Part shown: positions 2 through 45,996 of the stretch, piece by piece
How positions within the stretch are numbered: the stretch's first letter is position 1
Layout: each line of letters starts with the position of its first letter
NCBI GenBank assembly: GCA_031280685.1
Contig: JAITGM010000007.1
Coordinates: forward strand, 62,001-126,000
Reading direction: 5' to 3'
From: Christensenellaceae bacterium
GTDB taxonomy: Bacteria > Bacillota > Clostridia > Christensenellales > UBA1750
Length of the DNA stretch: 64,000 nucleotides
The notes under the pieces: generated by a model
Database searches by the model: none
Told to the model about the DNA's origin: nothing
Seen by the model: the letters and a program-made list of their open reading frames with translations, nothing else
Made by a program: the position numbers and the translations under genes

Positions 2-1183
2 GCCCCTCTTCAGGACGACGAGGAGCGGGAGCGCCTTCGCTGGTACGAGATCCTCTGGTTTCCGCTCAGGCCGCTGCTCATCTTCGCCACGGCGCTGCTG
101 ATCGCGGCGGGCAGCATCATCAGCCTCTTCCTCTATAGCTACGAGCACTACGTCATGCCGGTCGATTCCGGCGACCTGCGCCCCGTCAAGCTCGTCATCA
201 AGCGCGGCTCATCGATTTCTTCCATCGCGGCGCAGCTCAAGGATGCCGACCTCATCCGCAACAAGGGCGTGTTCCAATATCTTGCGGACTTTTCCGGCAA
301 GGGCGGCAGGCTCAAGGCGGGCGAGTACGAGCTGAACCGCTCAATGTCGGTCACGGAGATCATGGCGGCCCTGGAAGCAGGCAGCGGCACCCTTGAGGTG
401 ATGCGGTTCACCCTCGTCGAGGGCCTGACCATCGAGCAGATGGGCAAATCCCTGGTAGAGCAAGGCGTGTTTAAGGACGATAAGCGTTTTCTCGCCCTCT
501 GCCGCGGCGGCGAAGCCTTCCGCGCGGAATTCCCCTTCGTGGACGAATTGCTAAATGCCGGCGTGAGCGGCCGCTTCTATGCCCTTGAGGGCCTTCTCTT
601 CCCCGACAAATACGAGATCTATGTGGATTCGAGCGAGGAGCTGGTCATCGGCAAGCTGCTCAGCAGGATGAACCAGATCTATGGCGCCAGCTACGCCACG
701 CGCGCCGGGGATCTGGGCCTTAACATGAATCAGGTCATTACGCTCGCCTCCCTCATCCAAAAAGAGGGCAAGCGCGCCAGCTTCGAAAGGGTTTCGGCGG
801 TGTTCCACAACCGCCTGAGCCAAAACATGGCCCTGGGTGCCGACGTGACTATCCACTACGCCCTGGGCATCAACGATTTGGTCCTGAGCCAGTCGGCGCT
901 CGATACCGAATCGCCCTACAATACTTATACCCACAAAGGCCTGCCCATCGGCCCTATCTGCAATCCCGGGCAAGAAACCATTGAGGCTGCCCTCTACCCG
1001 GACGATGAAACCCTCAGCGAAGGCTACCTCTACTTCACCCTTACCGATCCTGAAACCGGCGAGCTCGCCTTCTCAAAGACACTGAAGGAGCATAATAAGA
1101 TCGTCGAAGAATACCGCCCCCTTTGGGAGGAATACGACAAAAAGCGGAAGGAAACGGCCGCGGCCGCCTCCCCCGCGCCGTGA
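2..1183 (+). CDS. mltG: Endolytic murein transglycosylase MltG (5' end outside window)
   Basis: The reading frame is open from base 2, so the gene starts before the window. Visible residues about 27-47 form one membrane helix, followed by the extracytoplasmic YceG/MltG domain. Family hallmarks are the ASLIQKEGK segment carrying the expected catalytic glutamate, the ADVTIHYALG segment and the YNTY...GLPIGPICNPG motif. MltG cleaves nascent glycan strands at the membrane and sets their length. The stop overlaps the start of the next gene by 4 bases (GTGA), which indicates an operon. The first methionine in the visible frame (base 155) lies after the membrane helix and is not the real start. Confidence 0.93.
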   Translation, partial: APLQDDEERERLRWYEILWFPLRPLLIFATALLIAAGSIISLFLYSYEHYVMPVDSGDLRPVKLVIKRGSSISSIAAQLKDADLIRNKGVFQYLADFSGKGGRLKAGEYELNRSMSVTEIMAALEAGSGTLEVMRFTLVEGLTIEQMGKSLVEQGVFKDDKRFLALCRGGEAFRAEFPFVDELLNAGVSGRFYALEGLLFPDKYEIYVDSSEELVIGKLLSRMNQIYGASYATRAGDLGLNMNQVITLASLIQKEGKRASFERVSAVFHNRLSQNMALGADVTIHYALGINDLVLSQSALDTESPYNTYTHKGLPIGPICNPGQETIEAALYPDDETLSEGYLYFTLTDPETGELAFSKTLKEHNKIVEEYRPLWEEYDKKRKETAAAASPAP

Positions 1184-33278: not shown

Positions 33279-34937
33279 TTAAGCTGCATTTTTGAGCATT
33301 TCGCCAACTTCGGCGAAGTATTTTTGCCGCACCGTCAGCGCGTCTATGACGGACACAAAGCCGTCTATGCGCGCCCGCTGCTCTATTTTTACAGGCCGGA
33401 ATTTCCTTGTTTCCATGTTGTGCTTGTATGCCACGTTCAGGAAATGGCCTTGTAAAAGCGTGTTTTCGTCGGCAAATAGGAAATTGCCGTCTAATAAAAT
33501 CCCCTCAAACTCACGAATAACAGGCGCTAAGTTTTCGCCCTGCCACACGTCATCCATGTGGAAGCCGTAGCCCCGCATATCGTCAACCAGATATTGCGCG
33601 CTGTATCGGTCATAGCCCACTTTCAGTACGTAAATTCTGTATTCCTCTTTGAGCTTTACAAACCAGTTGAACACGTCTTTATAATTCACATGGTTTTCGC
33701 CGGACAGCGTGACAATTCCACGCTTAACAAAAATATCATATGGCACGCCGTCTATAGCCGTGGCCGTTTCTATCCGGTTGGCCGGCATGAAGAATTGACA
33801 GAATGCGTATAACTTGCCGTCCCGCTCTATTACCACGCTTGCGGCGGTAAGGTCGGTTGTCTGCGAAAGGTCAATACCTCCCACGGCGTAGGTATTACGG
33901 AAACTGTCAAGCGTAAGCCCTGCGCTGGCTGCATAAATAACGGGCGCGTCGAAGGCCGCCATTGAAGAATTCTGCTTGATATTGCAATACTTCACAAGGA
34001 ATTCTGTTTTTTTGCTTATGCTGCCTTCGGCTATGGCGATCTCTTCTTCAAAGAATGCCGGGAATACTGAAACGCCCATATTCGGGTTCGCTTTTTTAAG
34101 CTCTGCTATGTCGTTCCACTTGTCCGGATCGTCCACCATGTAGATAAACGGAAGCAAGCGGCGTTCCTTGCTATTGCCTTTCAGGAATGCCGTAGAGCGC
34201 TTCATAAGCTCATCGTAAATACCGTCGTTCTCATAGCCCGCCGTGGAAATGGATAAAATAAAAGGCTGTCGCCGCGCGCCCAAAGCAGATTTCATAACTT
34301 CATACTGCTTTAGTCCAGCGTCGCCGCGCCAGCTTGCCACTTCGTCGTTTACAACTAAGTGCGGATTGAAACCATCTGACTTTTTAGCGTTAAATGCCAA
34401 CGGCTTTATAGCCGTGTTGCTTTCCTCAATGTAAATATCACTTCGACGCTTTTTTGAAAGCTCGGCAAGCTCCGGTTCCTTCTTGAGCATTTGAAAAAAG
34501 TTGTCGTAAACTATGTTCGCCTGCTCCAATTTCGGGGCTAAACAGTAAATTTTTGCCCCGTATTCACCGTCCAAATACGCCATGCAAGCGATAATCGCGG
34601 ACGCAAAAAGGGTTTTTCCGTTCTTTCTGCCAATGACAACAAACACTTCGCGCCAGACGCGCAAGCCGTCTGCATCCACAATGCCGAAAAGCGCTGAAAC
34701 AAGGGCTTTTTGCCATAGCTCCAGCTTTAATAAATCGTCGCGGCCTTCGCAATGATGGCAGAAGTTTTCAATAAAGCGAATGGCCTTGTTTGCCTTCTTC
34801 GCATTGAATAGATATTCGCCCCGCTCCAGCCCGGCAACGATAATTTCATAGACGGCAAGCACCCATTTTCCAACCGTTATTTCGCCGCTTTTTATGCGCG
34901 AATAGTAGTCGTAAATGTAATTCGCCGCCGCCATCAT
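33279..34937 (-). CDS. Terminase large subunit
   Basis: 552 aa. N-terminal ATPase: VIGRKNGKTLFASAIIACMAYLDGE carries the Walker A-like motif, and NPHLVVNDEVASWRGD carries the Walker B region. C-terminal nuclease: YAVGGIDLSQTTDLTAASVV with the acidic Asp, VLKVGYDRYSAQYLVDDM and RIDGFVSVIDALTV. The enzyme pumps DNA into proheads and cuts concatemers. It overlaps the TerS gene by 4 bases. Confidence 0.95.
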   Translation of the reverse strand: MMAAANYIYDYYSRIKSGEITVGKWVLAVYEIIVAGLERGEYLFNAKKANKAIRFIENFCHHCEGRDDLLKLELWQKALVSALFGIVDADGLRVWREVFVVIGRKNGKTLFASAIIACMAYLDGEYGAKIYCLAPKLEQANIVYDNFFQMLKKEPELAELSKKRRSDIYIEESNTAIKPLAFNAKKSDGFNPHLVVNDEVASWRGDAGLKQYEVMKSALGARRQPFILSISTAGYENDGIYDELMKRSTAFLKGNSKERRLLPFIYMVDDPDKWNDIAELKKANPNMGVSVFPAFFEEEIAIAEGSISKKTEFLVKYCNIKQNSSMAAFDAPVIYAASAGLTLDSFRNTYAVGGIDLSQTTDLTAASVVIERDGKLYAFCQFFMPANRIETATAIDGVPYDIFVKRGIVTLSGENHVNYKDVFNWFVKLKEEYRIYVLKVGYDRYSAQYLVDDMRGYGFHMDDVWQGENLAPVIREFEGILLDGNFLFADENTLLQGHFLNVAYKHNMETRKFRPVKIEQRARIDGFVSVIDALTVRQKYFAEVGEMLKNAA

Positions 34938-35287
34938 TCATCCCTCAAAGCCTGTAATTTGCTTTCTTTTTTCTTCACGGGCGGCGCAAGGTCGGCAAGC
35001 TGTTTCATAATTGCGGCGTGGTTTTTTGTCATGGCAATATGAGTTTTCACCGCCTCGGACTGCTTACGCCCGGACTGGTTCGCGCCGTTCTGGTATTCCT
35101 CGGTGTAGCCCTCTACGTTTATGATTTCCTGCAACTCTTCAAGCGACACCGCCATGAACGCGGCGTTGCGGATCAGGCTTTCAACGGTCTGCAATTTGTT
35201 TTTGTCAAGGTCACGAAAAACCCGCTTTAGTCGGCTGATCTCTTTCTTGATTTTCTGTTCTTTCGTAAGCTCTGCTTTTGTCGCCAT
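34934..35287 (-). CDS. Terminase small subunit
   Basis: 117 aa from ATG 35287 (MATKAELTKEQKIKKEISRLKRVF). Helical, with FRDLDKNKLQTVESLIRNAAFMAVSLEELQEIINVEG, a common P27-like small subunit pattern. It recognises the packaging start site and recruits TerL. Directly upstream of TerL on the same transcript. Confidence 0.8.
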   Translation of the reverse strand: MATKAELTKEQKIKKEISRLKRVFRDLDKNKLQTVESLIRNAAFMAVSLEELQEIINVEGYTEEYQNGANQSGRKQSEAVKTHIAMTKNHAAIMKQLADLAPPVKKKESKLQALRDE

Positions 35288-35392
35288 AAAAACGCCCCCT
35301 TCCTCCCGGCTACACACCACCCCCTCACGCTACACCCGTCATGCGCGCCTGTGTGGAGTAAAGTTAGCCGGCACGCTCGGTGCGGAAGCCGC

Positions 35393-35713
35393 CTAAAATT
35401 TTTCAAACGATGGGGGGGATAGTATCAAGTTGCCGTCGCTGTCGAAACTGTACCGCGAATTCCTTTCCGCTGCGTGATGCTCCCTGTTGTGGCAATCTTG
35501 ACAAAGTGCTTCAAGGTTGCCCCATGCAAGCGAAACGTAAGGATTATTTATATTATCCTGTGTCAAGTATTCCTTGTGGTGAACTATCTTTGCCGCAACC
35601 GGATTGCTCGGCGTGCTGCACCGTTCGCACAAGTAGCCCTTGCTTTGCATGAATGCCTCGCGGCATTGCTGCCATGCCACCGAAGCATAGAAGCGTTCAG
35701 CCCATGCTTTCAC
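35393..35713 (-). CDS. HNH endonuclease
   Basis: 106 aa from GTG 35713, preceded by a GGGAGG ribosome site. The HNH core reads CERCSTPSNPVAAKIVHHKEYLT...ALCQDCHNREHH with two CxxC zinc pairs. In HK97-type phages an HNH protein next to terminase is needed for specific cutting at packaging. A longer frame to 35935 crosses a terminator and a promoter region, so it is not the real start. Confidence 0.87.
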   Translation of the reverse strand: MKAWAERFYASVAWQQCREAFMQSKGYLCERCSTPSNPVAAKIVHHKEYLTQDNINNPYVSLAWGNLEALCQDCHNREHHAAERNSRYSFDSDGNLILSPPSFEKF

Positions 35714-35726
35714 ATCCTCACCGCCT

Positions 35727-35771
35727 CCCCAAAAAGAAAATAGCCGTGCCCTCGAAAGGGTACGGCTATAG
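35727..35771 (-). terminator. Terminator/attenuator between early and late regions
   Basis: ATAGCCGTACCCT and AGGGCACGGCTAT form a stem of about 13 bp with a short loop, followed on the minus strand by TTTTCTTTTT. It lies between the early operon and the packaging genes. Confidence 0.75.
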
Positions 35772-35790
35772 GCAATTCTGCATCGTCCAT

Positions 35791-35851
35791 AAGTATACCA
35801 TGTCGTTTGTGCATATGGAAAGTGCAAGTTATGCGCACGCCGTTTGTGCAT
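35791..35851 (-). promoter_or_regulatory. Candidate late promoter with direct repeats
   Basis: On the minus strand a -10-like TATACTT (35797-35791) has no good -35. Instead two direct copies of an 11-base motif (plus-strand reading CGTTTGTGCAT at 35804-35814 and 35841-35851), 37 bases apart, lie upstream. This is what an activator-dependent late promoter would look like, and an ArpU-like regulator gene ends at 35851. Confidence 0.5.
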
Positions 35852-36381
35852 TACAGCGCCGCCGCGCCATATAGCCATACCGCCAGCCGACGCACCAGCC
35901 GCCCCCGGTTCCGGCGCACTGTCGAAGCGTCGCATGGAATGACCGCCGCTATGTCGTCATCCGTCCGGCCTTCAAGAAATTTCCCGGCCACCGCCGCATA
36001 GTAGGGATCGGCCTCTATAGTTTTGAGCGCGCCCGCTATTGTGGCAACTTCGTATTCGTCGGCGGCAATTCGTGCTTCCATGTCCTGCACCAGCGCGTCA
36101 AGTATTTCTTCCGGCGTTAGTCGTGTTCCCGTTCTGGTGAACCGTACAATGTCTTTGCTGCGCCCCGGCGCTCCATGTAATAAATATTCTTGTAGCCGCT
36201 CCCTGTTGTCCACAATCCGGTTTTGCAAGACAGGAAAGGCGTAAAGCCGCTTTTCTGTGTCCTTGTATGCGTTCTTCGTTTCACTGGCGGCCTGAACCCG
36301 CCCGGCTTGCAGTCCAGCATTTACCGCCTTTTCAATTACCGCGTTTATATCCAGCGGTTTAGGTTTCTTGTTTTGTGCCAT
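35851..36381 (-). CDS. ArpU-like late transcription regulator
   Basis: 176 aa. The C-terminal part (VATIAGALKTIEADPYYAAVAGKFLEGRTDDDIAAVIPCDASTVRRNRGRLVRRLAVWLY) is a sigma-70 region 4-like helix-turn-helix found in ArpU/RinA-type phage regulators that switch on late genes. It is the last gene before the packaging operon and its stop abuts the candidate late promoter repeats. Alternative: a terminase-associated DNA-binding protein. Confidence 0.75.
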   Translation of the reverse strand: MAQNKKPKPLDINAVIEKAVNAGLQAGRVQAASETKNAYKDTEKRLYAFPVLQNRIVDNRERLQEYLLHGAPGRSKDIVRFTRTGTRLTPEEILDALVQDMEARIAADEYEVATIAGALKTIEADPYYAAVAGKFLEGRTDDDIAAVIPCDASTVRRNRGRLVRRLAVWLYGAAAL

Positions 36382-36778
36382 ATGCCATATCCTCCATTTT
36401 CAAATAATCTAAAATTACCTGTGCCGCTGGTTCCCACCCAAAGCAAAGGGCAACGCAATAACCCTGCGCCTTTAATCGCTCCATCCATTCCGTTTGTGTT
36501 TCGCTTACCTTGCCGCCCCGCTGCCGCTTTAGCTCTATGTAAAGGCCGTGGAAGCCTCCGCGGGCAACGGGTAAGCATATGTCCGGTATGCCAGCTTTCA
36601 CGCCCTCGGCTTTGAAGCGTCCCGCCTCGGCCTTGCTGCGGCTGCCGCCGTTCGGCACGTGGTACATAAGCGCCAATTCCGGAAAGCGCCCGCTTTGTAT
36701 AACTGCCCACTGAAATAGCGTTTGCTGTTCCTCGCTTTCCGTAGGAACTGGCAATGCGGCATTATTACGGCGTTGCAT
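36359..36778 (-). CDS. VRR-NUC domain nuclease
   Basis: 139 aa. TESEEQQTLFQWA, YHVPNGGSRSKAEAGRFKAEGVKAGIPDICLP and GLYIELKRQRGGKVSETQTEWM give the VRR-NUC core with catalytic Asp and Glu-x-Lys. Phage VRR-NUC proteins are structure-specific or Holliday-junction-type nucleases linked to replication and recombination. Overlaps both neighbours by short stretches. Confidence 0.9.
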   Translation of the reverse strand: MQRRNNAALPVPTESEEQQTLFQWAVIQSGRFPELALMYHVPNGGSRSKAEAGRFKAEGVKAGIPDICLPVARGGFHGLYIELKRQRGGKVSETQTEWMERLKAQGYCVALCFGWEPAAQVILDYLKMEDMAYGTKQET

Positions 36779-37136
36779 ATTGCGCCCCCTCTTGAAGCCC
36801 CTCTTTCAAGCCTTCTTTTAGTTTTTGTTCCCATTCGGCGAAGTAGAATATTTCCATTCCGTGGGCGGCGGCGTAACCGTGTTCAAACATTGCCCCGCGG
36901 CTGTCTGTCCAGTCCGGCAAAAAGCAAGCGGCTTTGCATTCTGCCAGCATTGCGCCGGATATGCGCATATATGCTTCGTAGTCAAACCCGCTCGAAGGAA
37001 GCATAGCGGGATTGAGAACGATAAACCCCGCCTTTTCCAGCGTTTGCGCCGCATCTAAGAATTTTAAGCGGTAATACGGATCACCTGTGATTTTCCCCGC
37101 AAGGTAAACTGTTGTCGCGTGTTTAGGCATTTTCAT
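36765..37136 (-). CDS. DUF4406-type nucleoside 2-deoxyribosyltransferase-like protein
   Basis: 123 aa. TTVYLAGKITGDPYYRLKFLDAAQTLEKAGFIVLNPAMLP and SRGAMFEHGYAAAHGMEIFY match the DUF4406 group of the nucleoside deoxyribosyltransferase fold. It may act on nucleotides or nucleosides during phage DNA synthesis; the reaction is not established. Confidence 0.82.
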   Translation of the reverse strand: MKMPKHATTVYLAGKITGDPYYRLKFLDAAQTLEKAGFIVLNPAMLPSSGFDYEAYMRISGAMLAECKAACFLPDWTDSRGAMFEHGYAAAHGMEIFYFAEWEQKLKEGLKEGLQEGAQYATP

Positions 37137-37441
37137 AGCTCCCCCTTTTCTCTTCTCGCTTGCATTTTATCGTTTAGGCGGTCGGCCACCCTCTGCGCCC
37201 GCCGCTGCGTGCGGTATAGCTCGCGCCGGGAAGCGTCGTATTCCTCGGCATAGCCCGGATCGCCTTCGTACATGTCATTCGGCGGCACAAGCTGCCATTC
37301 GCCCACGAATAGCTTTTTCGTTTTGTTGCTGTAGCTGAAAAGGCCACCTTTGCGAACCAGTGTCACGGGTACGGCGCAAAATGTTTCGTACATGTCCGTT
37401 ACAATCCAATATCGCCCGCCAATTCTCGGAAATATCACCAT
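37133..37441 (-). CDS. Phage hypothetical protein, 102 aa
   Basis: Begins at ATG 37441 (MVIFPRIGGRYWIVTDM) after a GGAGGG site. It has an N-terminal beta-rich half and a C-terminal Arg/Lys/Glu-rich helix (RRELYRTQRRAQRVADRLNDKMQARREKGEL). No family recognised. It sits between the MT-A70 methylase and DUF4406 genes with a 4-base overlap to the latter. Confidence 0.65.
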   Translation of the reverse strand: MVIFPRIGGRYWIVTDMYETFCAVPVTLVRKGGLFSYSNKTKKLFVGEWQLVPPNDMYEGDPGYAEEYDASRRELYRTQRRAQRVADRLNDKMQARREKGEL

Positions 37442-37445
37442 GCCT

Positions 37446-38078
37446 TTAACCCTCCTGTGCTTCAAAGTAATCAAAGAACGATAATTGCCCGTCGTCGTTG
37501 CCGGCCGCATTATCTGGCAACACTTCGGCTTCTTCGTCCGGCGCTTCGTTGCCCCAACAATCCCACCCCGGCGCGGATTGCCGGGCGAAAAGCTCTATTG
37601 CCTCGCCACCGCCCATAAGCTCCATAATTTTCTTCCGGACAATCGGCGGTTTTGCACTATGGCGGCCAAGTGGCCATTCGATAAGCTGCGATACGCTGGC
37701 CGAAACCCGCTTCGGCTTTCCTCGCGTCGCAATAAAGCAAGGTTCCGTATTTCCTCGCGTCCAGCGGCCAAGCCCGAAGAACCAGCCTTTGCCGCTTCGG
37801 TTCTGCTTTATCCACTGGAACCCGATTGTTTTATATTCAAAGCCCCATGCCTCAATAAGCCGTAAGGCTTCGCGCATCATGGGATATGTAGCCCAAAGAA
37901 ATAATACGCAATCCTTTTCCGCTATCCGTTCGACTGGTAGGGCGCATATGTCGTCGATCTTCATGGTCTGGTAATGCAATTCACAAGCTCCATTGCATTT
38001 CTTGTCGTTATAGCTCCACGGCGGATCGGCGTAAATTATGCTGTATTTCTTGTCTGTGTTGAAAATGTCCACATACAA
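37446..38078 (-). CDS. MT-A70 family DNA adenine methyltransferase
   Basis: 210 aa. The catalytic DPPW lies in YSIIYADPPWSYND; VLFLWATYPMMREALRLIEAWGFEYKTIGFQWIK and RGNTEPCFIATRGKP complete the MT-A70 pattern. It transfers a methyl group from SAM to N6 of adenine in DNA, probably to protect phage DNA. It is one of three methyltransferases in the early operon. Confidence 0.92.
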   Translation of the reverse strand: MYVDIFNTDKKYSIIYADPPWSYNDKKCNGACELHYQTMKIDDICALPVERIAEKDCVLFLWATYPMMREALRLIEAWGFEYKTIGFQWIKQNRSGKGWFFGLGRWTRGNTEPCFIATRGKPKRVSASVSQLIEWPLGRHSAKPPIVRKKIMELMGGGEAIELFARQSAPGWDCWGNEAPDEEAEVLPDNAAGNDDGQLSFFDYFEAQEG

Positions 38079-38084
38079 ACGCCG

Positions 38085-38963
38085 TCACCCCCTCTTTTTC
38101 TGCTTTTTCGTTTTTCGCGGCGGCGGCTCCGGCTTTAGGTGCATTTTCGCATATATGTAAGCCCCTGCCACGAATTTAGAACTTTTCACCGCTACTTCGT
38201 CGAAGTCGTATTCGGGAAATAGCTTGCTGAAAATCATCGGCGCGGCTGCGTCCATATCCTGCGCCATGCGCTCGGCCTGCCTTTTGCTGATCTTCGTGTC
38301 GGCGGTTGTTATGGTCGGCTCCTTCAAATTCCGCGAAGCCTGCCAGCGCTTGCTTTTCGTCGGCTGCTTCGTGATATACCGCGCCAACCCTTCCAGCGTG
38401 CCATCCTCCGGCTCTAATTCATCAACGCGAACGCTGCCATGCGGCCAAAGGCTTTTTACTGTTTTTCTATCCATGCCGGACATGATAACGTGATGGTGAA
38501 CCCGTGTCCTGCGCCCGTCGCCGTTGTAAAACTCAATCACGTAAACATACTTCAATTCCGAAAGCCCGTTTTTGCGCCGATATGTGCGAACCCGACGAAT
38601 GAAATTGCGTATGTCCCGGCGCGCCTGTTCTTCCTCTGGTAACACGCCGCGCTTGTAAGTAAGCGTTACATGGAGGTCTTCCGGCGTAAAGTTGGCATTG
38701 ATTTTCCGGATCAGTTTCTTTTTTGCGTTCCGGTCGTTCAAATTCTGCTGTGCTTCTCGGCTGGAATGCACCTTCGCCGCCCGAACCTCGTTTTTCGTGT
38801 TCCAAAGCGGGTAAACCTCCACTTCCAGAACCTGACCGCTTTTTATCGTGGCCGCCCTGTATCTGAAAATATCTTTGTGCCGCAATGCTTCAAAAGCGCT
38901 TTCTGTAAGCTCGCCGCACATCTGGTCAAAAAGAAATTCATAGTTTTTTGCGCTATACGGCAT
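38085..38963 (-). CDS. HUH rolling-circle replication initiator-like protein
   Basis: 292 aa. Three HUH endonuclease motifs are visible: motif 1 LHVTLTYKRG, the HUH motif RVHHHVIMSG and motif 3 LARYITKQ with the presumed nicking Tyr and Lys. Such proteins nick one DNA strand and stay covalently attached, starting rolling-circle synthesis. The C-terminus is strongly basic. Rep proteins of this class occur in filamentous phages, plasmids and some Firmicute prophages. Confidence 0.8.
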   Translation of the reverse strand: MPYSAKNYEFLFDQMCGELTESAFEALRHKDIFRYRAATIKSGQVLEVEVYPLWNTKNEVRAAKVHSSREAQQNLNDRNAKKKLIRKINANFTPEDLHVTLTYKRGVLPEEEQARRDIRNFIRRVRTYRRKNGLSELKYVYVIEFYNGDGRRTRVHHHVIMSGMDRKTVKSLWPHGSVRVDELEPEDGTLEGLARYITKQPTKSKRWQASRNLKEPTITTADTKISKRQAERMAQDMDAAAPMIFSKLFPEYDFDEVAVKSSKFVAGAYIYAKMHLKPEPPPRKTKKQKKRG

Positions 38964-38977
38964 TTTCCCTTACCCCC

Positions 38978-39532
38978 TCAATATCCGAAGTCATGCTTTA
39001 CTTGATTGCTGTAATGCGCGTCAAGCTCAAACACGGAATTGTAAAGGGCGGTCTGCAAGTATGCCTTTTTGTTATAAATTTTGCTGGTTATCTGTGCGAA
39101 GTTGTCCGCTACAAGTTCGGCGTGGGCGTGTGTCAACTGCGAATAAACTTCCTGCACCATTTCAACATTCGTAAATGAGCCGTTTATTTTTATCGCCTTC
39201 GGTGCGCCGTCCCGGTCTTCGATTTCCATTGCCAGCACTTCGGCGATTATGTAGCAGATTTCCTTATATCGCGGCAAGTCCGGATTTCCCGTATAATCCA
39301 AGTGGGCAAAATCAATTTGCCGCTTTGCTATTTCTATGGCTGCGGCCAAAGAAAGACGGACGGGACGGACTGACATTGACGCGCCGATGCATGAATGATT
39401 TTTTTCAAGAAGCGAAAGCGCACGGGATATATTTTGCATCGCCTCTTCTTCTGGCATCCCTCCTAAAAACCTTTCAAGCCTGTTTTTGATCTCTTGATAT
39501 TCTGCCAATGGCAGGGAAATATATTTATCCAT
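38978..39532 (-). CDS. DUF6017-like replication-associated protein
   Basis: 184 aa from ATG 39532, which follows GGAGG. The C-terminal part (FTNVEMVQEVYSQLTHAHAELVADNFAQITSKIYNKKAYLQTALYNSVFELDAHYSNQVKHDFGY) resembles the DUF6017 domain found at the C-terminus of RepA-type initiators of Firmicute plasmids and ICEs. Here it stands alone without the DNA-binding half. It precedes the HUH Rep-like gene by 15 bases, suggesting a shared role in replication. Confidence 0.7.
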   Translation of the reverse strand: MDKYISLPLAEYQEIKNRLERFLGGMPEEEAMQNISRALSLLEKNHSCIGASMSVRPVRLSLAAAIEIAKRQIDFAHLDYTGNPDLPRYKEICYIIAEVLAMEIEDRDGAPKAIKINGSFTNVEMVQEVYSQLTHAHAELVADNFAQITSKIYNKKAYLQTALYNSVFELDAHYSNQVKHDFGY

Positions 39533-39606
39533 TTTCACGGCCTCCATCGTTCAGATGATAATACCCATTACAAGCCCGTAATGCGCCACGGTTAGGCGCT
39601 TTTCGC

Positions 39607-39635
39607 TTGACTTGTAGCCGTGTGTTTGATATAAT
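39607..39635 (+). promoter_or_regulatory. Promoter of a plus-strand small RNA
   Basis: TTGACT (39607-39612) and TATAAT (39630-39635) separated by 17 bases, near consensus. It points against the direction of the surrounding early genes. Confidence 0.75.
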
Positions 39636-39641
39636 AATTAT

Positions 39642-39719
39642 GTTAGTTATCGCACTTACACACGGCATAAACCCTTCGGGGGAAAGCGGCTTGCAGTCTA
39701 CGCAAGCCGCTTTTGTTTT
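39642..39719 (+). ncRNA. Predicted prophage small RNA, about 75-80 nt
   Basis: A near-consensus promoter is followed within 80 bases by a perfect 11-bp stem (AAGCGGCTTGC at 39684-39694 and GCAAGCCGCTT at 39702-39712) and a T-rich tail, so a short transcript should be made. A second small hairpin (CCCTTCGGGG) lies in its middle. The only open frame begins at the very transcription start without a ribosome site. It sits between the Cys-rich early protein and the DUF6017-like replication gene, inside an otherwise minus-strand operon. No known RNA family is recognised. Confidence 0.65.
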
Positions 39720-39727
39720 GCGTTCTT

Positions 39728-40102
39728 TTATCCGTAATTTTCGCCGTCGAATTCTTCATACTCGCCGCAATCTGGTTCGCCCTCTTTTGGCGAATAGCGG
39801 ATACCGTCCACGCAACCGACGCACGGGAACGGATTTTCTTCATCCGTTTCGGCGCTGCCATCGTCAAGCGGGCAATGCGCCAGCTTCGCGCACGTGTTGC
39901 ACCAACACGCTTTACAGTCGGCAATATTCGTTTTGCCCGGCGTTGCCGCTGCTGGTTTTTCGTCCTGCGTCCAGTAAAGAGCCTCCATCGCCGTAGGGAA
40001 CACAACTTCAAGAAACTTCGTGCGTTCCCGGTCGATAAAGTCCGGATCACCGTGCGCTTCGAATTCAATGTCGGCTATCTTATATCTAACGCGGCTTTCC
40101 AT
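39728..40102 (-). CDS. Cysteine-rich early phage protein, 124 aa
   Basis: N-terminal half MESRVRYKIADIEFEAHGDPDFIDRERTKFLEVVFPTAMEALYW is followed by a cysteine cluster (DCKACWCNTCAKLAHCPL...FPCVGCVDG...DCGEYEE) that could bind zinc or an Fe-S cluster. No family recognised. The start overlaps the end of the 48-aa membrane peptide gene, so translation is probably coupled. Confidence 0.7.
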   Translation of the reverse strand: MESRVRYKIADIEFEAHGDPDFIDRERTKFLEVVFPTAMEALYWTQDEKPAAATPGKTNIADCKACWCNTCAKLAHCPLDDGSAETDEENPFPCVGCVDGIRYSPKEGEPDCGEYEEFDGENYG

Positions 40103-40232
40103 TCCCGCGGCCTCCTTTTATAATGTTGCGTATGCAGGCCAGCACCACGGCCACGATCAGCGCCGCGCCTCCTGCGCAAGCAACGCCCACAAGCAAATAG
40201 AAGGCGTTTGCCATAAATTGAAATGCCGTCAT
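40086..40232 (-). CDS. 48-aa single-pass membrane peptide downstream of the VR2 protein
   Basis: ATG 40232 overlaps the stop of the VR2 gene (ATGA) and its own TAG overlaps the start of the next gene. One hydrophobic helix (FYLLVGVACAGGAALIVAVVLACI) is followed by a basic tail (RNIIKGGRGNGKPR), so the C-terminus should face the cytoplasm. Tight translational coupling to the DGR-diversified protein suggests stoichiometric expression and perhaps membrane anchoring of it; this is inference. Confidence 0.7.
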   Translation of the reverse strand: MTAFQFMANAFYLLVGVACAGGAALIVAVVLACIRNIIKGGRGNGKPR

Positions 40233-41044
40233 TTGTCATCGCCTCCGAAAAAGTTTATAGTGCGGGCGAAGTGGAACATCAATTCCCACGCTTGCGTTTC
40301 ATTAAAGCCCGCCGTTTGAAATTCGCTATACATATTAAATAAGGTATGTGCCAGCTGGCCGAAGTCGCATTCGTCTTCGTCCGGCTCTTCTTTTTCCTGT
40401 GCGTATGGCGCGGGCGGCGCTTCGCCGAAGAAGTTTTTGTAAAGCGCGTCCATGATTTCCGAAAATGGCGCTTTTACACGCTGCTTCACTTCGGCTTCAT
40501 CGTAAGATACCGAAATATCAGATTTCAGATAACAAAGCGGACGAACGCCCCAGCTACCGTGGTACGCGCGGCTGTTGTCCAACGCGCCGGACGTGTTGAC
40601 GCTGCGCACGTTACGGGAATTTCCGTTCCGCTCGGTCGTCCACGGTGTACAAGTCCACCACCAATCAGACGCATCCGGGATCAGCTTTCTATAATGGCGG
40701 TACATGTCGCATGTGATAAGGCCAATTGTTACGGTTTCCTTGCCGTAGTCCGTTAACCCGTCGTCCGAAGTCAAATCCAGCGCAATAGGCCGGAAAGCTT
40801 CCTTGTCCGCGCCGCCCTCTATGAGCGCGCTCAAAAACTCTTCATTCAAATATGCGCGAAGAGAAGAGGCGGCAAAGTCGTTTTTGTTGTCTTCGTCGAA
40901 GGCGCGTTCCTCCAGCACGTCGGCGGCAAGGCACAACGCCGCATTTGGCCTATGCTCCAGCACAACCCATTTCACGCCGCCGTATGTAAAGCGGCTTCCG
41001 GCCTCCAGCGTCGAAAGTGTCCCGGTTTTCATTGCGGTTTCCAT
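40229..41044 (-). CDS. DGR target 2: early DUF6273-like protein carrying VR2
   Basis: 271 aa. The domain (LRAYLNEEFLSALI...WWWTCTPW...VRSVNTSGALDNSRAYHGSWGVRPLC) is homologous to the variable domain of the tail target, and residues 145-170 are VR2. No signal peptide or Ig-like repeats are present; the C-terminal 75 residues are a helical tail (FSEIMDALYKNFFGEAPP...CDFGQLAHTLFNMYSEFQTAG). It therefore seems to be an intracellular protein. It lies in the early operon after the MazG-like gene, with AAGGAG before its ATG, and is coupled to a small membrane peptide. Confidence 0.88.
   Translation of the reverse strand: METAMKTGTLSTLEAGSRFTYGGVKWVVLEHRPNAALCLAADVLEERAFDEDNKNDFAASSLRAYLNEEFLSALIEGGADKEAFRPIALDLTSDDGLTDYGKETVTIGLITCDMYRHYRKLIPDASDWWWTCTPWTTERNGNSRNVRSVNTSGALDNSRAYHGSWGVRPLCYLKSDISVSYDEAEVKQRVKAPFSEIMDALYKNFFGEAPPAPYAQEKEEPDEDECDFGQLAHTLFNMYSEFQTAGFNETQAWELMFHFARTINFFGGDDK
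40535..40612 (-). other. DGR variable region VR2 (remote)
   Basis: 78 bases aligned without gaps to the 3' part of the template repeat at 20704-20781. It differs at eight positions, all adenine in the template. The adenine-free 17-base 3' block is identical to TR and VR1. Beyond it, VR1 and VR2 continue to resemble each other (CTTTGT.ATCTG) while TR does not, as expected for the IMH side. It lies about 19.8 kb from TR. Confidence 0.95.
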
Positions 41045-41094
41045 GTTTCACTTCTCCTTATATATAATGTAGTGGTGCGCTGCCACCCGCTCGG

Positions 41095-41535
41095 TTAGCA
41101 TTTTTTGCCGCCGTGACGATATGGGCGGCTTTTGTTGTATTCGTGCTTAATACGGATCGCTCGTTCAATGTCAATTCCGGCGTGGCCGCAATAGTCCAAA
41201 ATGCGTATAATGCAGTCTGCCAGCTCCACGGCCACACCTTCCGGCTTTTCCACTCTGTCCGTGCATTCTTCGCAATGGCCGCAATCAGCGTCGGAACTGT
41301 CGGCAATCCGATCTTGCGGATCGTCTTCGTGCAATGTTTCTTTACACTTGTGATAAACCATCGGCATTCCGTCCCTAAATTCTTCCAACGCCTCCGCAAG
41401 CTCCGACACGCAAAGCATAAGAATTTCCGGAAGGCCACGCGGTTCTTCCCACCAGCCATGCGCAACCGCGTTTTGGTGGATTTCTGCGGCAAGCTCATTC
41501 ATGCCAGTGCCGGGCGCTACTGTGTTAATGTCCAT
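41095..41535 (-). CDS. MazG-like nucleotide pyrophosphohydrolase
   Basis: 146 aa from ATG 41535. LCVSELAEALEEFRDGMP and VAVELADCIIRILDYCGHAGIDIERAIRIKHEYNKSRP form the ExxE...ExxD metal-binding helices of the all-alpha NTP pyrophosphatase superfamily. A Cys-rich insert (DADCGHCEECTD) separates them. Phage MazG proteins hydrolyse dNTPs or (p)ppGpp-like signals. It lies just upstream of the VR2 protein gene. Confidence 0.85.
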   Translation of the reverse strand: MDINTVAPGTGMNELAAEIHQNAVAHGWWEEPRGLPEILMLCVSELAEALEEFRDGMPMVYHKCKETLHEDDPQDRIADSSDADCGHCEECTDRVEKPEGVAVELADCIIRILDYCGHAGIDIERAIRIKHEYNKSRPYRHGGKKC

Positions 41536-41539
41536 TTGT

Positions 41540-42172
41540 CTATTCCTCCCCGTCAATTTCTGTTTGTTCGCCCTCGCTCTCACGCCGGGCGGCTTCGCGT
41601 TCGGCTTTTCGCGCTTCTTTCAATTCAAAGGAAGTGCGGCATTTGCTCGAAAGCTGTTCCATGCTCTCAACAAATTTTGCTTCAAGGATATTCAGCGGCA
41701 TAATAACACCCGCTATCATAAGCCCCATTTTTGCCGCAAAGTACGTGCCGCCTTCCGGCGTGTGCCGCTCGTATAGTTCTAAATCGTCCGCTACATCTGC
41801 AAGCGGTGCTAAAAAATCAGCGTCGATAAACTCCAATCCTCCACGTGTGAACAGTGGTCGGACAACGCGCCCACTATAGCCAAGCGTTATTTTCTCGCGG
41901 TCAAGCATAGTTTCGTCTGTGTCTATATGGTCAAAATTGATAGAGGTCGGAAGCCGATCATGTCGAATGTAGATTTTTTCAAGTTGCTTTTCCGTTAGGT
42001 CGAACATTGCCGCAATGTTTTCTTCCGTCAGGTAAGGTAAGCCGGAAAGCGGGTAAACGGCTGCGTGTGTCCCTAACCACTGTTCCGTTATTTCGCCTTC
42101 GGCGCTTATGCGGTCGTACAAACAATACACGCCATCACGCTTGCACATGGCCGCCAGTGTCTTCAATTTCAT
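41540..42172 (-). CDS. Conserved early phage protein, 210 aa
   Basis: MKLKTLAAMCKRDGVYCLYDRI..EGEITEQWLGTHAAVYPLSGLPYLTEENIAAMFDLTE is a pattern I associate with conserved Firmicute prophage proteins of unknown function. The C-terminus is a charged helix (ELKEARKAEREAARRESEGEQTEIDGEE). It is followed 4 bases later by the MazG-like gene. Confidence 0.7.
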   Translation of the reverse strand: MKLKTLAAMCKRDGVYCLYDRISAEGEITEQWLGTHAAVYPLSGLPYLTEENIAAMFDLTEKQLEKIYIRHDRLPTSINFDHIDTDETMLDREKITLGYSGRVVRPLFTRGGLEFIDADFLAPLADVADDLELYERHTPEGGTYFAAKMGLMIAGVIMPLNILEAKFVESMEQLSSKCRTSFELKEARKAEREAARRESEGEQTEIDGEE

Positions 42173-42183
42173 ATCGCACCCCG

Positions 42184-42492
42184 CTACATTGATATTTTTT
42201 CATACACTTTGACCGCTTCGTGCCCGTAGGTGTCCCGCTGCACGTAGGTAACAAGCGCTGACTGCATCCACGAATTGCGAAGATGATCGCGGGCAACCCG
42301 CTTTGCCAGCTTCCACGCGGCGCGCTTGTCTTCGCCGCTGGAATAGACGGGGAATTCAGCTATAAGCCTGTAATCATTCCCCCGCATAGAGGCCGCGCGC
42401 TCTCGCATGAACTCTTTGCGCCCGTCCCTGCACTTGAAAATTTCCGTGTCCTTCGGAAAGCTCCAGCTTTTGCCGCCGTTGTCCTTTGCCAT
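42184..42492 (-). CDS. Early phage hypothetical protein, 102 aa
   Basis: From ATG 42492 (MAKDNGGKSWSFPKDTEIFKCRDGRKEFM). Basic, mixed alpha/beta, with DKRAAWKLAKRVARDHLRNSWMQSALVTYVQRDTYGHEAVKVYEKISM. No family recognised. Located between the SleB-like hydrolase and the 210-aa conserved protein. Confidence 0.6.
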   Translation of the reverse strand: MAKDNGGKSWSFPKDTEIFKCRDGRKEFMRERAASMRGNDYRLIAEFPVYSSGEDKRAAWKLAKRVARDHLRNSWMQSALVTYVQRDTYGHEAVKVYEKISM

Positions 42493-42506
42493 GTGTCCCG
42501 CTCCTT

Positions 42507-43124
42507 TCAATCTTTGTATGGATTTTGCAAGCTCCAGTCCCAAAGCTCGCCGCTACTGTAGGTGTTGCGAAAATGGTTGTTCTTGCCGTCGCCCGTGAAG
42601 AATGTGTATTCTGCTGGAAGAACGCGCCCCGCATCTCCAAGGCCGATTTTTTCAAGCTTCCACCGCGCCAGCACGTCGGCGGCTATGGCTATATGCTCTT
42701 CTGTGGCCGGATAGCTCGGCGAGTATCCCACGAACTGGTTTTCTTGCTTCACAACCTCGGCTATGGTATCCGGCCAGCGCGGATCGTCAACCCGGTTCAG
42801 CACGCACCATACAACCGCCGCTTTTTCCGCTGTAGAGGGAATGCCCCGTGCTTCGCCCCATATGAGCCGCGCCAGCATTTCAACGTCGTTTTCGTCCCGC
42901 TCCGCTTCCGGCGCTCTTATTACACTGTCGCCCGGTTCTGTTGCGCTTTCGGCTTGTTCGATAACACTTTCTGGTGTTTCAATAACGGTTTCCGGCGTTT
43001 CGGTCACATAATCGGGCGTTGTGTCGCTGTTGGTTGCCAGTGTCGGCGTATGTGGCGGCATAATTGCTGCGGCGAAAATAACAACGCCCGCTATCATGCA
43101 GATAAGAAGGGAAGGCTTTTTCAT
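42507..43124 (-). CDS. Membrane-anchored cell wall hydrolase, SleB/Hydrolase_2 type
   Basis: 205 aa. An N-terminal signal anchor (LLICMIAGVVIFAAAIM) is followed by a low-complexity linker with repeated ETPETVIETPESVIEQAES units and then a SleB-like Hydrolase_2 domain: MLARLIWGEARGIPSTAEKAAVVWCVLNRVDDPRWP carries the catalytic Glu. These enzymes are lytic transglycosylase-like. It lies in the early operon beside methyltransferase genes, not in the lysis cassette, so it may act during lysogeny or early infection. Confidence 0.82.
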   Translation of the reverse strand: MKKPSLLICMIAGVVIFAAAIMPPHTPTLATNSDTTPDYVTETPETVIETPESVIEQAESATEPGDSVIRAPEAERDENDVEMLARLIWGEARGIPSTAEKAAVVWCVLNRVDDPRWPDTIAEVVKQENQFVGYSPSYPATEEHIAIAADVLARWKLEKIGLGDAGRVLPAEYTFFTGDGKNNHFRNTYSSGELWDWSLQNPYKD

Positions 43125-43924
43125 ATAGCCGCCTCCTTTATCCAAAGAACTTCAATGCGTGCTTGCCCCCGCTCGGCGGCGGCTTTCTTTTCAATGCGCT
43201 GCCAGCCCGCCAAGCGCTCGTTGTAAAGTTCGTTGTCGTACCCGCTCAAAACCACGGAACCGGAATGCGCCGCCAATGCCTCCAGTAATTCCACATGCTG
43301 CGCATCGTTCATTTCAATGGCATATATGTTTTTTCGGCGGGTTCCCGGTACATATGGCGGATCGGCATAAATAAGACATTTTGGATCGTTGTACTTGCGG
43401 ATAAGCTCCAAAGCGTCCATGCACTCTATTTGCGCTTCCATTAGGCGGCCGGCCGCTTGTATGATCCTCTCTGGAACCTTCGCCCATTGCTGCGGCATTG
43501 CGGGCGCTCTGCCTGTAGCGCTGTGCCTCCAGCCTGTTTTTTGCCCGGTAAGCGTTCCGAAAGCCTGCCAGCATCGCACAAGGAAAAGGCGTGCGGCGTA
43601 TAAGTCGGCTTCGTCGCTATGCTTGCAAGCCTCCAGCGCTTCAAGCGCCGTGCAAGCGATTTCGTATTCTTCACGCGCCCACGGCGTTAAGGCTATGAGC
43701 GCCGCCAACTCTTCCGGTTGGCTACGAATGACGCGAAACAGATTTACCACGTTGTGATCGCGGTCGTTTATGGTTTCCAGTCGGGCGGGTTTTTTGTTAA
43801 AAAATATGGCTCCGCTACCGAAGAATGGTTCAAGGTAGATTTCATGCGCCGGAAGTTGTGGTATAATCCAGCTCGCCGCGCTCCATTTTGCACCGGGATA
43901 TTTCAAAAGCGGTCGTTGTGTCAT
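43121..43924 (-). CDS. DNA adenine methylase, Dam/D12 class
   Basis: 267 aa from ATG 43924 (GGAGG upstream). N-terminal PLLKYPGAKWS and YLEPFFGSGAIFF bind SAM; the catalytic motif is CLIYADPPYVPGTR. RARLFL-type features (AARLFLVRCWQAFGTLTG) also fit the D12 class. It methylates N6 of adenine, probably in a GATC-like site. Its start overlaps the stop of the C5 methyltransferase gene (ATGA). Confidence 0.92.
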   Translation of the reverse strand: MTQRPLLKYPGAKWSAASWIIPQLPAHEIYLEPFFGSGAIFFNKKPARLETINDRDHNVVNLFRVIRSQPEELAALIALTPWAREEYEIACTALEALEACKHSDEADLYAARLFLVRCWQAFGTLTGQKTGWRHSATGRAPAMPQQWAKVPERIIQAAGRLMEAQIECMDALELIRKYNDPKCLIYADPPYVPGTRRKNIYAIEMNDAQHVELLEALAAHSGSVVLSGYDNELYNERLAGWQRIEKKAAAERGQARIEVLWIKEAAI

Positions 43925-45264
43925 ATAGCTGCCTCCCTGCCCCGCCATACATCGAAGTAACCCGCTCGGCGCACTGCGAAAGCGTCCCCGCGCTGGACAA
44001 TATCCGGGTAATTGCTGCTTGCTATTTGCATTGCGTATTTGTCTATCTCAAAGGCGTAATACTTTATGTTGTTGTATCCCAACTGGTCGAAGCAATAGCG
44101 CCCCGTGCCGATCCCGTCATACATGGACATAACAACAATTCTTTCATCCAGCGGAACGCCCGCCAGCGCGTGGCGTAAAAGGTGTATAATAACTTCCGCT
44201 GTCCAACCGTTGCCAAGCCCTCTATACGCTTGCGTATCAGATACCGCCCGGCAATAATCGTCCGGCAAGGTCTGGAGGCGGCAAGCCTCGGTTACGCTTA
44301 ATTTTCGGATTATGTAATAGCCATCCGGTAATTTGATAGGATAGGTTTTGCCCTTAATCTCAATTTGTCCAGCTTCCACGCGATACACTGGCCGGCCGCG
44401 CTCCACATTATCAGAAGGCACGGCATAAAGCCCGGTTCGGCTACTGCTTTTATCGCTACATCCTCCTGCGGTCGTGGCCGCTTGCAGGGCAACGCTTTTT
44501 GCGTCTACCGCATAAATGCGCTTTGATTGTGTTGGTTTCAGCTCGCCCTTTTCATTCGGAAGACAACCAACCCGGACGGGTACGCCTTGATAACCCTTCG
44601 TGCGGATTATGTTTTCTTCGAAATTGCGTTTGCCGCATTTGTCATATGAAGCGCGGAAGCATTCGGCCTTTTCCCGGTCGGCAACTGGCATAGCGTAAAG
44701 CCCCGTTGCTGCACCCCCGCCGCCGTCCGTCGCTTTTAGTGTAACGCTCTTTCCGTCAACGCCATAAATGCGCCCCGCCTGCTGCTGGTAGTCCGGCCAC
44801 GTTCCCACACGGTTAGGTGCTACCGCCTCGGCAACCATATTCCGGGTATGTCGCTTCAAACTGTCTTCCGGCGTGGGGCCGTGCGCCGTGGTAAGTGTGT
44901 ATGCTTTATCGCTCCAACTTTCGCCCCGCTCCAAAATGTCTTGAAGTAATATGCCGCGGTCTTCCGGCTGCGGAACGTCGCCGAAATTGTGGCAATAGAA
45001 CCGTTCCCGCCGCTGCGCGGATACCAGCGCCGAATTGATATACTGGAGCGGCGCGCCAAGCTCGGCGGCTATCTGGTCTTTGATCGGCTGCGCGGCGCTT
45101 TTGTTGTTCTCGTATAAGAAGAAGTCCGGCTTGAAGCGCTCTTTGGCGATAAGGTAGTTTCTGAATAGCTCCCACCCTATGCCCTCGGCTTCGGTTTCGC
45201 GGTTCTTGCTCTGCGCTATGCTCCAGTGCGTGCAGGGCGAACCGCCGATTAAGAATTTGATCAT
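43921..45264 (-). CDS. Circularly permuted DNA cytosine-5 methyltransferase
   Basis: 447 aa from ATG 45264, with AAAGGTG upstream. Motif order is unusual: the N-terminus begins with motif IV (IGGSPCTHWSIA, catalytic Cys), then motif VI-like FFLYENN and motif VIII-like SAQRRERFY. Then come a variable target-recognition stretch with two repeated RIYxVDxKSV...GLYA(M/V)P units and motif IX/X (LSVTEACRLQTLPDDY, YRGLGNGWT). SAM-binding motif I (VVMSMYDGIGTGRYCFDQLGY) comes last, with motifs II-III. The DGIGTG form resembles Dnmt3-type sequences. It probably protects phage DNA. Confidence 0.88.
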   Translation of the reverse strand: MIKFLIGGSPCTHWSIAQSKNRETEAEGIGWELFRNYLIAKERFKPDFFLYENNKSAAQPIKDQIAAELGAPLQYINSALVSAQRRERFYCHNFGDVPQPEDRGILLQDILERGESWSDKAYTLTTAHGPTPEDSLKRHTRNMVAEAVAPNRVGTWPDYQQQAGRIYGVDGKSVTLKATDGGGGAATGLYAMPVADREKAECFRASYDKCGKRNFEENIIRTKGYQGVPVRVGCLPNEKGELKPTQSKRIYAVDAKSVALQAATTAGGCSDKSSSRTGLYAVPSDNVERGRPVYRVEAGQIEIKGKTYPIKLPDGYYIIRKLSVTEACRLQTLPDDYCRAVSDTQAYRGLGNGWTAEVIIHLLRHALAGVPLDERIVVMSMYDGIGTGRYCFDQLGYNNIKYYAFEIDKYAMQIASSNYPDIVQRGDAFAVRRAGYFDVWRGREAAI

Positions 45265-45349
45265 GTTAGTTAGCACCTTTCGTTAATGGTTAGCCAGGCG
45301 GGGGACGGGTTCGATCACGTCTGGCGGGGCAGTCAATATTTGAAGCCGC

Positions 45350-45589
45350 CTACTTCCCGCGGCGCTCCAGCTTTTTAGCCGCCTCCGCGTATTCGTGAAA
45401 CGCCGTGGACATGTCCCGCACTATGCCGTCACACACGGCCTTTTCGTCGCTTGTCATTTTGCCGCCGTCGTCCAGCGGCCTTTTGTCGGTGTAGAAGCGG
45501 ACGCTTTCCACTATGGAGCCGTCCGGCGCGCGAAGGCCGACAACGCCTTCGCGCGGTTCGCCGCTGGTTCGTTCGATTTTTACCGCCAT
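45350..45589 (-). CDS. Small early phage protein, 79 aa
   Basis: MAVKIERTSGEPREGVVGLRAPDGSIVESVRFYTDKRPLDDGGKMTSDEK followed by a helix (GIVRDMSTAFHEYAEAAKKLERRGK). First gene after the Cro-like repressor and just behind the second operator copy, so it is among the first early products. No family recognised. Confidence 0.65.
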   Translation of the reverse strand: MAVKIERTSGEPREGVVGLRAPDGSIVESVRFYTDKRPLDDGGKMTSDEKAVCDGIVRDMSTAFHEYAEAAKKLERRGK

Positions 45590-45606
45590 GTCGTCACCTT
45601 CCTAAA

Positions 45607-45623
45607 GTTACGTAAAACGCAAC
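45607..45623. promoter_or_regulatory. Operator copy downstream of the Cro-like gene
   Basis: GTTACGTAAAACGCAAC, an imperfect dyad (GTTACGT/ACGCAAC), and exactly the inverse complement of 45859-45875. It lies at the end of the Cro-like gene, before the next early gene. Confidence 0.7.
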
Positions 45624-45844
45624 TACGCCGCAAAAAAAATATCTTGCGGCCTTGCGTTTAGGACGGAAGCGAAGGCTTCCATCTCGCTTCGCGTAAAATC
45701 GGTTTTCCCGTTAATACGCGCGGAAAGAGTGGCACGGCTCATTCCCATCTTTTCGGCCATTGTGCCAATGTCAAGGCCAGCATCTACAAGTTTTGCCTTC
45801 AAACTCCGCGACTGGCCTTCTGTCAAATAGGCGTGTGCGCTCAT
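45623..45844 (-). CDS. Cro-like helix-turn-helix regulator
   Basis: 73 aa from ATG 45844 (GGAGGTG upstream). AGLDIGTMAEKMGMSRATLSARINGKTDFTRSEMEAFASVLN is a compact XRE-type HTH. It is divergent from the CI-like gene and is the first gene of the early operon. Two inverted copies of a 17-base operator flank it, so it probably controls both its own promoter and readthrough into the operon. Confidence 0.82.
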   Translation of the reverse strand: MSAHAYLTEGQSRSLKAKLVDAGLDIGTMAEKMGMSRATLSARINGKTDFTRSEMEAFASVLNARPQDIFFAA

Positions 45845-45858
45845 CGTTTTCACCTCCT

Positions 45859-45875
45859 GTTGCGTTTTACGTAAC
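45859..45875. promoter_or_regulatory. Operator copy upstream of the Cro-like gene
   Basis: Plus strand GTTGCGTTTTACGTAAC, the exact inverse complement of the copy at 45607-45623. It lies between the early promoter -10 and the Cro-like start codon, ideal for repression. Confidence 0.75.
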
Positions 45876-45876
45876 C

Positions 45877-45906
45877 ATGATAGCATACTGTTTGTGGGCT
45901 TGTCAA
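45877..45906 (-). promoter_or_regulatory. Early (PR-like) promoter
   Basis: On the minus strand TTGACA (45906-45901) and TATCAT (45882-45877), 18 bases apart, drive the Cro-like gene and the early operon. Confidence 0.7.
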
Positions 45907-45912
45907 TACGCC

Positions 45913-45936
45913 ACGTCAAAAAGTTTCGTTTGACGT
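45913..45936. promoter_or_regulatory. CI-type operator between divergent promoters
   Basis: ACGTCAAA-N8-TTTGACGT, a perfect 8-bp dyad midway between the two divergent -35 elements, a different sequence from the Cro-type operators. A CI dimer here could touch polymerase on both sides. Confidence 0.65.
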
Positions 45937-45937
45937 A

Positions 45938-45966
45938 TTGATTTTAAGACGCGCCAGTGGTACAAT
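45938..45966 (+). promoter_or_regulatory. Lysogenic (PRM-like) promoter of the CI-like gene
   Basis: TTGATT (45938-45943) and TACAAT (45961-45966), 17 bases apart, about 30 bases before the CI-like ATG. Confidence 0.65.
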
Positions 45967-45996
45967 GAAAGAACCTTATTGAAATGTGGTGGTTTT

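Follow-up and report, generated by a model that had tools for sequence, protein, structure and literature searches.

A gap between two early genes of a prophage is predicted to encode, on the strand opposite to those genes, an RNA of ~78 nucleotides that is likely, as judged from the sequence, to be the countertranscribed RNA (ctRNA) of a phage rolling-circle replicon. It would act through a switch between two leader arms, A and B, that closes the start of the next gene. The gap lies within the window, by which we mean the whole stretch of DNA analysed (64,000 nucleotides), and the signals and genes around it are as follows.

39607..39635, plus strand: promoter of the antisense RNA, TTGACT-N17-TATAAT, located by promoter scan and kept in relatives
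39642..39719, plus strand: predicted antisense RNA, ~78 nt, its start inferred from the −10
39682..39719, plus strand: intrinsic terminator and U tail, with the stem at 39682-39714 followed by GTTTTG
39728..40102, minus strand: early gene upstream of the gap, 124 aa, no family match, ending 8 nt past the antisense RNA 3′ end
38978..39532, minus strand: gene for a DUF6017-domain protein (184 aa, counted from ATG 39532), the first one downstream of the probable double-strand origin (dso)
38085..38963, minus strand: rolling-circle replication initiator (Rep), PF23343 E 3.3e-16, phrog_3584 E 2.3e-76
33279-34937, minus strand, as the genes of the gap: terminase-like ORF, labelled from a reading of its translation

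The near-consensus promoter reported in the first-pass annotation is confirmed, scoring 11/12 on the plus strand, with the −35 TTGACT at 39607-39612, the −10 TATAAT at 39630-39635 and a 17-nt spacer; a TG at 39627-39628 (TGA ahead of TATAAT) adds an extended −10, sequence TGATATAAT. The terminator with its T tail also stands, but its stem, given earlier as a perfect 11 bp, has 12 perfect base pairs in a repeat search and 13 pairs in the terminator scan. These signals delimit an expected plus-strand transcript of 78 nt, within the 75-80 nt first proposed, and the gap of ~200 bases between early minus-strand genes measures 195 bp from the stop at 39728 to the DUF6017 start, which is most likely ATG 39532, preceded by GGAGG. 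The predicted RNA fold has an MFE of −27.7 (z −3.64) and beats all 200 shuffles. Within 30000-49000 only two promoters reach 11/12, that of the antisense RNA and a minus-strand site at 45906, and the antisense RNA terminator ranks first among the terminators listed for that region. The earlier statement that the plus strand carries no other such signal thus holds for 30-49 kb; elsewhere in the window there are plus-strand 11/12 sites at 14435, 53418 and 61445, two of them directly ahead of tRNA-Ser genes. The same prophage region also contains a very strong minus-strand terminator at 28251-28210 (18 pairs, 10 G-C).

Judging by the terminase-like ORF and further genes sharing its strand, the gap belongs to a prophage operon. 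The best minus-strand promoter, at 45906-45877, adjoins a repressor-like ORF, and the promoter scan found no minus-strand promoter of ≥9/12 between 38510 and 42763, so that the rep mRNA should cross the gap and with it the antisense target. The RNA does adjoin replication genes, as had been noted, with DUF6017 and then Rep (PF23343, phrog_3584) following downstream on the minus strand, and it lies opposite the leader of both. At the level of sequence it therefore has its own promoter and intrinsic terminator and is antisense to the leader of an initiator mRNA, as a ctRNA is. A DUF6017-like ORF is found at the same place in locus L012 and is absent there from L006, L009 and L011. A second Rep relative occurs in the window's own genome (L005, G000:C40:23406-24176; 38% identity), and the origin core described below was not seen in the upstream sequence inspected.

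Alignment of 10 viral loci of related Rep genes (43-65% identity) places the highest conservation outside the RNA gene, in a neighbouring GC hairpin followed by ATTACGGGCTTGTAATGGGTATTA.

39559..39599, minus strand: probable dso, hairpin GCGCC..GGCGC (39583-39599) plus core GGGCTTGTAATGGGTATTA, recognised by conservation among Rep loci

The minus-strand 18-mer at 39559-39576 is present as a single copy in the window and in none of 100 shuffles. Exact searches with the core matched 37 loci in contigs of bacterial genomes and 75 in contigs of viruses, which, once copies were removed and the window added, make 96 distinct core sites, mostly in Bacillota prophages. A match to the window's Rep lies within 4 kb at 86 of these 96 sites and at none of the other 10. 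A conserved nick element and hairpin beside an initiator gene are what mark a rolling-circle dso, and this unannotated, highly conserved element is probably just that. The nick presumably falls within CTTG^TAATG of GGGCTTGTAATGGGTATTA, an assumption that we base on CTTG^ATA of phiX174 and pC194. A 34-kb Paraclostridium sordellii plasmid (L135, NZ_CP124276.1) carries a related Rep and an origin-like core matching at 14/19 positions; it is perhaps an extrachromosomal phage.

Rep proved the useful handle for finding relatives of the gap: the gap DNA itself gave no match when searched directly in phage records or in a genus comparison with just one other genome, and peptide-based searches with the two flanking proteins gave 0 loci for one and 1 for the other. 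Grouped by upstream sequence, the 96 core sites form 64 clusters. Of these 64, 27 have an antisense promoter of ≥10/12 within the zone 20-80 nt upstream of the dso. The mean of 100 shuffles is 0.46 (sd 0.64, maximum 2); the opposite strand of that zone scores 5, and the two strands downstream of the dso score 0 and 1. In 22 of the 27 clusters the distance from the origin core to the start of the −35 is 26-31 nt, and in the other 5 it is 62-73 nt. The count of 27 is a lower bound, since the scan started at 20 nt from the core and thus missed L025, at 18 nt. When 23 modules are aligned, no variation is seen at the T of the TG or at T, A and T of the −10, and almost none at the G of the TG. All 31 of 31 modules examined have a hairpin plus T tract that reaches −12 kcal/mol or better and whose end lies 88-120 nt past the −35 (shuffles 8.25/31); in 30 of 31 it reaches −15 kcal/mol or better (shuffles 4.75/31). 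The 31 modules are those scoring ≥9 with TT at −35, plus L012, L027, L029 and L076 by hand, with L052 standing in for L039, a truncated member of the same cluster, and with L025, L082, L073, L117, L059 and later L043 excluded by hand. Conservation of promoter and terminator in related prophages, proposed in the first-pass annotation as the thing to look for, is thus found for both. Window-like terminator hairpins also occur 118-148 nt upstream of the origin in L059 and L117, which have no clear promoter at the usual place; these are perhaps shifted or decaying copies.

Because the layout recurs in relatives far above shuffles, it represents more than chance. Chance signals, or a bidirectional terminator of the upstream gene combined with an accidental promoter, are scarcely credible as an explanation: the hairpin does come after the upstream gene's stop, but its minus-strand side has no U run, and the enrichment extends across the 64 clusters. 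Carriers of the module have Rep proteins about 30-100% identical to the window's. On a Rep tree of 57 rows the RNA is present in 29 and, by the promoter rule, absent from 28, a distribution that needs 11 gains or losses, of which well-supported branches force at least 7. It is found on either side of the deepest split, and the window's nearest rows by path, L071 and L030, are without the promoter by this rule. Host labels include Oscillospiraceae, Lachnospiraceae, Clostridiaceae, Peptostreptococcaceae, Tissierellaceae, Peptococcaceae and Paenibacillaceae.

The first-pass annotation had offered three roles for the RNA, in replication, immunity or the regulation of host mRNAs. We choose replication, a role made plausible by the association of the RNA with the rolling-circle origin and the Rep gene. 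Many prophage small RNAs act in trans on host mRNAs, yet such a function is very improbable here, given that across families little primary sequence is shared beyond the signals and the stem layout and that the RNA tracks the dso/rep locus; nothing seen at these loci points to host mRNAs. Rfam likewise offers no match: the window RNA belongs to no family at the gathering threshold, with just two weak matches to eukaryotic families at a relaxed level, and the loci of 14 relatives gave none.

The promoter spacer is an inverted repeat of a segment transcribed further downstream, GCCGTGTGT and ACACACGGC in the window, which defines two arms of the mRNA leader; a third lies at the start of the next gene.

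39658..39666, minus strand: arm A, GCCGTGTGT, in the mRNA leader and covered by the antisense RNA, recognised as an inverted repeat
39617..39625, minus strand: arm B, ACACACGGC, in the mRNA leader and the complement of the promoter spacer, able to pair with A or C
39536..39542, minus strand: arm C, GGCCGTG, between the Shine-Dalgarno sequence and the ATG of the DUF6017 gene, recognised by its pairing with B

Arm B lies outside the RNA, and the mRNA leader contains both A and B. Of 31 modules, 17 have the more stable A:B duplex on the mRNA strand and 7 have it on the RNA strand (Wilcoxon p 0.0135), a bias that fits a structure formed either in the mRNA or in displaced single-stranded DNA. In an exploratory fold of the leader, covering A seemed to redirect B to where the next gene starts. 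We had earlier abandoned closure of the DUF6017 start as a universal rule, because the module also occurs without DUF6017; this fold led us to take the idea up again for whichever gene comes first downstream.

The pairing tests of this hypothesis used largely the same loci as the fold that gave rise to it. Pairing of each B with its own start region (−30..+25) has a mean of −12.4 kcal/mol, compared with −9.7 kcal/mol for the B of other clusters, and 0 of 20,000 permutations gave a mean as low. The same own-versus-other comparison shows no excess in control intervals at +40..95 and +80..135 (p 0.69 and 0.62), but an excess is present at +120..175 and +160..215 (p 0.006 and 0.0006), so that part of the B signal may reflect composition or homology. 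Against shuffled start regions, z is below −1.5 in 16 of 26 clusters and in 2-6 of 26 in five control intervals; the window's B against the GGCCGTG start region of DUF6017 gives the most extreme value of the 26 (z −4.16). The best partner of B between the origin and start+200 is centred ≤25 nt from the start codon in 14 of 26 clusters, where 5.4 would be expected with the B of other clusters (P 1.2e-5) and 6.1 with shuffled B (P 8.8e-5). With the clusters split by leader length from dso to start, at a value of 150 nt chosen after inspection of the data, the best partner is the ribosome-binding/start region in 14 of 15 clusters with leaders of ≤150 nt (expected 4.3 and 5.3) and in 0 of 11 with longer ones. 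Masking the RNA-covered part had no net effect on the accessibility of positions −16..+3, whose mean went from 0.39 to 0.38, falling in 9 and rising in 7 of the 26 clusters, a result that speaks against the switch, and G-U counts on separately optimised duplexes (34/398 vs 38/417) were uninformative.

Missing from the 26-cluster set are L041, L039/L052, L044, L085/L097 and L099, where either Rep or its start could not be located, and also L043, L059, L076 and L113, which we chose to omit; the cluster of L009 contributes L011 as an additional, second member. The DUF6017 start was used for the window and L012, and that of L058, set by hand to +183, was not counted as a success. The long-leader group must rely on another device, since B:start pairing is missing there. 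A B pairing at +165 in the Oscillospiraceae-type members of this group was rejected as regulatory, the site being a conserved coding stretch (NARRYF). In the long-leader loci L048, L066 and L112 the rep Shine-Dalgarno sequence lies inside a hairpin, GCTTCATC..GGTGAAGC, directly upstream of a GTG start.

Named phages provide the sole new loci for B:C pairing. Rep matches occur in 22 phage records and 4 plasmids, of which 14 and 1 were sampled; 4 of these 15 records have an antisense promoter of ≥10/12 upstream of an origin-like core (≥14/19 bases): the Latilactobacillus phages TMW 1.1365 P1 and TMW 1.1381 P1 (both L. curvatus) and TMW 1.46 P2 (L. sakei), all three from post-induction lysates, and the Terrisporobacter phage TPDSL_ph2. 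In the remaining 11, Butyrivibrio phage Arawn and Faecalibacterium phage Toutatis among them, the promoter is absent or weaker. Pairing of B with the start region fits in TMW 1.1365 P1 (z −3.87), which is near-identical to L110 and hence not independent, and in TMW 1.1381 P1 (z −2.79), where both B and C differ from those of TMW 1.1365 P1. TMW 1.46 P2 and TPDSL_ph2 have the promoter, but the best partner of B lies elsewhere than in the start region. The annotated start of the TMW 1.46 P2 replication protein (L136, 1156-1240) looks 28 codons late, as homology begins upstream. The main text of the L. curvatus phage paper contains neither "antisense" nor "rolling" (PMC10688831).

The main rival to the ctRNA is a single-strand origin (sso), in which RNA polymerase would bind the A:B hairpin of the displaced strand and the plus-strand RNA would be the lagging-strand primer. 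The sequence of the RNA does match the complement of the strand expected to be displaced, and the position of the element, directly 5′ of the dso, is that of most ssos of rolling-circle plasmids according to the parts of the source available (PMC4595007). Modelled pairing of the displaced strand exceeds the null in the spacer (up to 0.94 vs 0.68) and at the −10 (~0.67 vs 0.44), but scarcely at the −35 hexamer. A lagging-strand primer is ~20 nt long and would need neither a full double-strand promoter nor a terminator in 31 of 31 modules; because the terminators are conserved we favour a finished small RNA. An sso also leaves the complementarity of B to the start region unexplained, and we judge it unlikely, although the two roles could coexist. 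A further alternative is transcriptional interference, whereby the convergent promoter would slow or collide with polymerase on the early operon and the RNA product would be idle. In its favour, a strong extended −10 promoter faces the early operon, but it leaves the conserved A:B arms, which pair better on the mRNA strand, and the B:start pairing unexplained, and we consider it quite unlikely.

For a ctRNA, we infer the following course of events from the sequence, conservation and pairing statistics. The strong, constitutive-looking promoter would give an RNA of ~78 nt antisense to the stretch of early mRNA that precedes the dso and rep genes. As long as the mRNA is by itself, A would pair with B and the start region of the next gene would stay free; once the RNA covers A, B would be released to pair with the start region, in the window with arm C by the DUF6017 Shine-Dalgarno sequence. 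With the start closed DUF6017 would not be made, nor, through translational coupling, would Rep. Within the window the direct target would thus be DUF6017 and not Rep, a point that counts against the ctRNA. In the lysogen leaky early transcripts would be kept from starting replication, and after induction the early mRNA would outrun the antisense RNA. By extension, superinfecting relatives may be affected too. A scan of 39530-39660 found no minus-strand terminator-like site, and an intrinsic attenuator on the mRNA strand was not seen; the mechanism would therefore be translational, and not termination of the pT181 kind.

Several known systems share parts of this arrangement. The CI immunity RNA of phage P4 is likewise a phage RNA, of ~70 nt, that holds replication genes off, but it is processed from a sense leader and works by transcription termination. 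RNAI of pSK41, a RepA_N plasmid, is described in the available parts of one paper as a ctRNA of ~83 nt with its target in the rep leader, ~100 nt upstream of the start region, and with a proposed role in closing the ribosome-binding site (PMC5703833); length, antisense orientation to the rep leader and start-closing logic are all similar. pSK41, however, is a theta plasmid with an unrelated initiator, whereas here the replicon is that of a rolling-circle phage, the RNA promoter abuts the dso and the promoter spacer is itself a switch arm. The RNAI/pre-emptor attenuator of pT181 belongs to a rolling-circle replicon and combines a ctRNA of 87 nt with alternative leader pairing (same parts of PMC5703833), but pT181 stops transcription at a terminator-like stem, whereas no minus-strand terminator is listed here before DUF6017, and its dso lies inside rep. 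RNAII of pMV158 is a ctRNA from the intergenic region of an operon that blocks translation of a rolling-circle initiator; in the portions of the source available it is 48 nt long, forms a single hairpin and adjoins the start signals, and no A/B switch is described (PMC4485353). Extrachromosomal mycobacterial prophages also use an RNA in replication, serving maintenance of the prophage as a plasmid, but theirs, in the excerpts available, is an initiator RNA compared with ColE1 RNA II, with no Rep (PMC7157519).

Antisense control is standard in rolling-circle plasmids (PMC5703833 and PMC4485353, in part), and a review devoted to rolling-circle initiators has one mention of antisense RNA in its accessible text (PMC5714925). 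Among open papers on antisense RNA, rolling-circle replication and phages, judged mostly by titles and the beginnings of abstracts, none was seen to describe an RNA of this sort in a tailed phage. We tentatively raise the idea, which may well prove wrong, that a widespread class of tailed phages controls rolling-circle replication by a plasmid-style antisense RNA, with the promoter spacer as regulatory arm of the target mRNA, and that this RNA acts in trans as a second, repressor-independent immunity against related phages. The ctRNA model itself is directly testable because inducible named phages carry the module. If true, it would bring plasmid copy-number logic to temperate phages of the Bacillota, from gut Clostridia to Paenibacillaceae and lactobacilli, would provide a simple means of finding the rolling-circle origins of Bacillota phages, and would give a testable account of what keeps the origin of an integrated phage from firing within the host chromosome.
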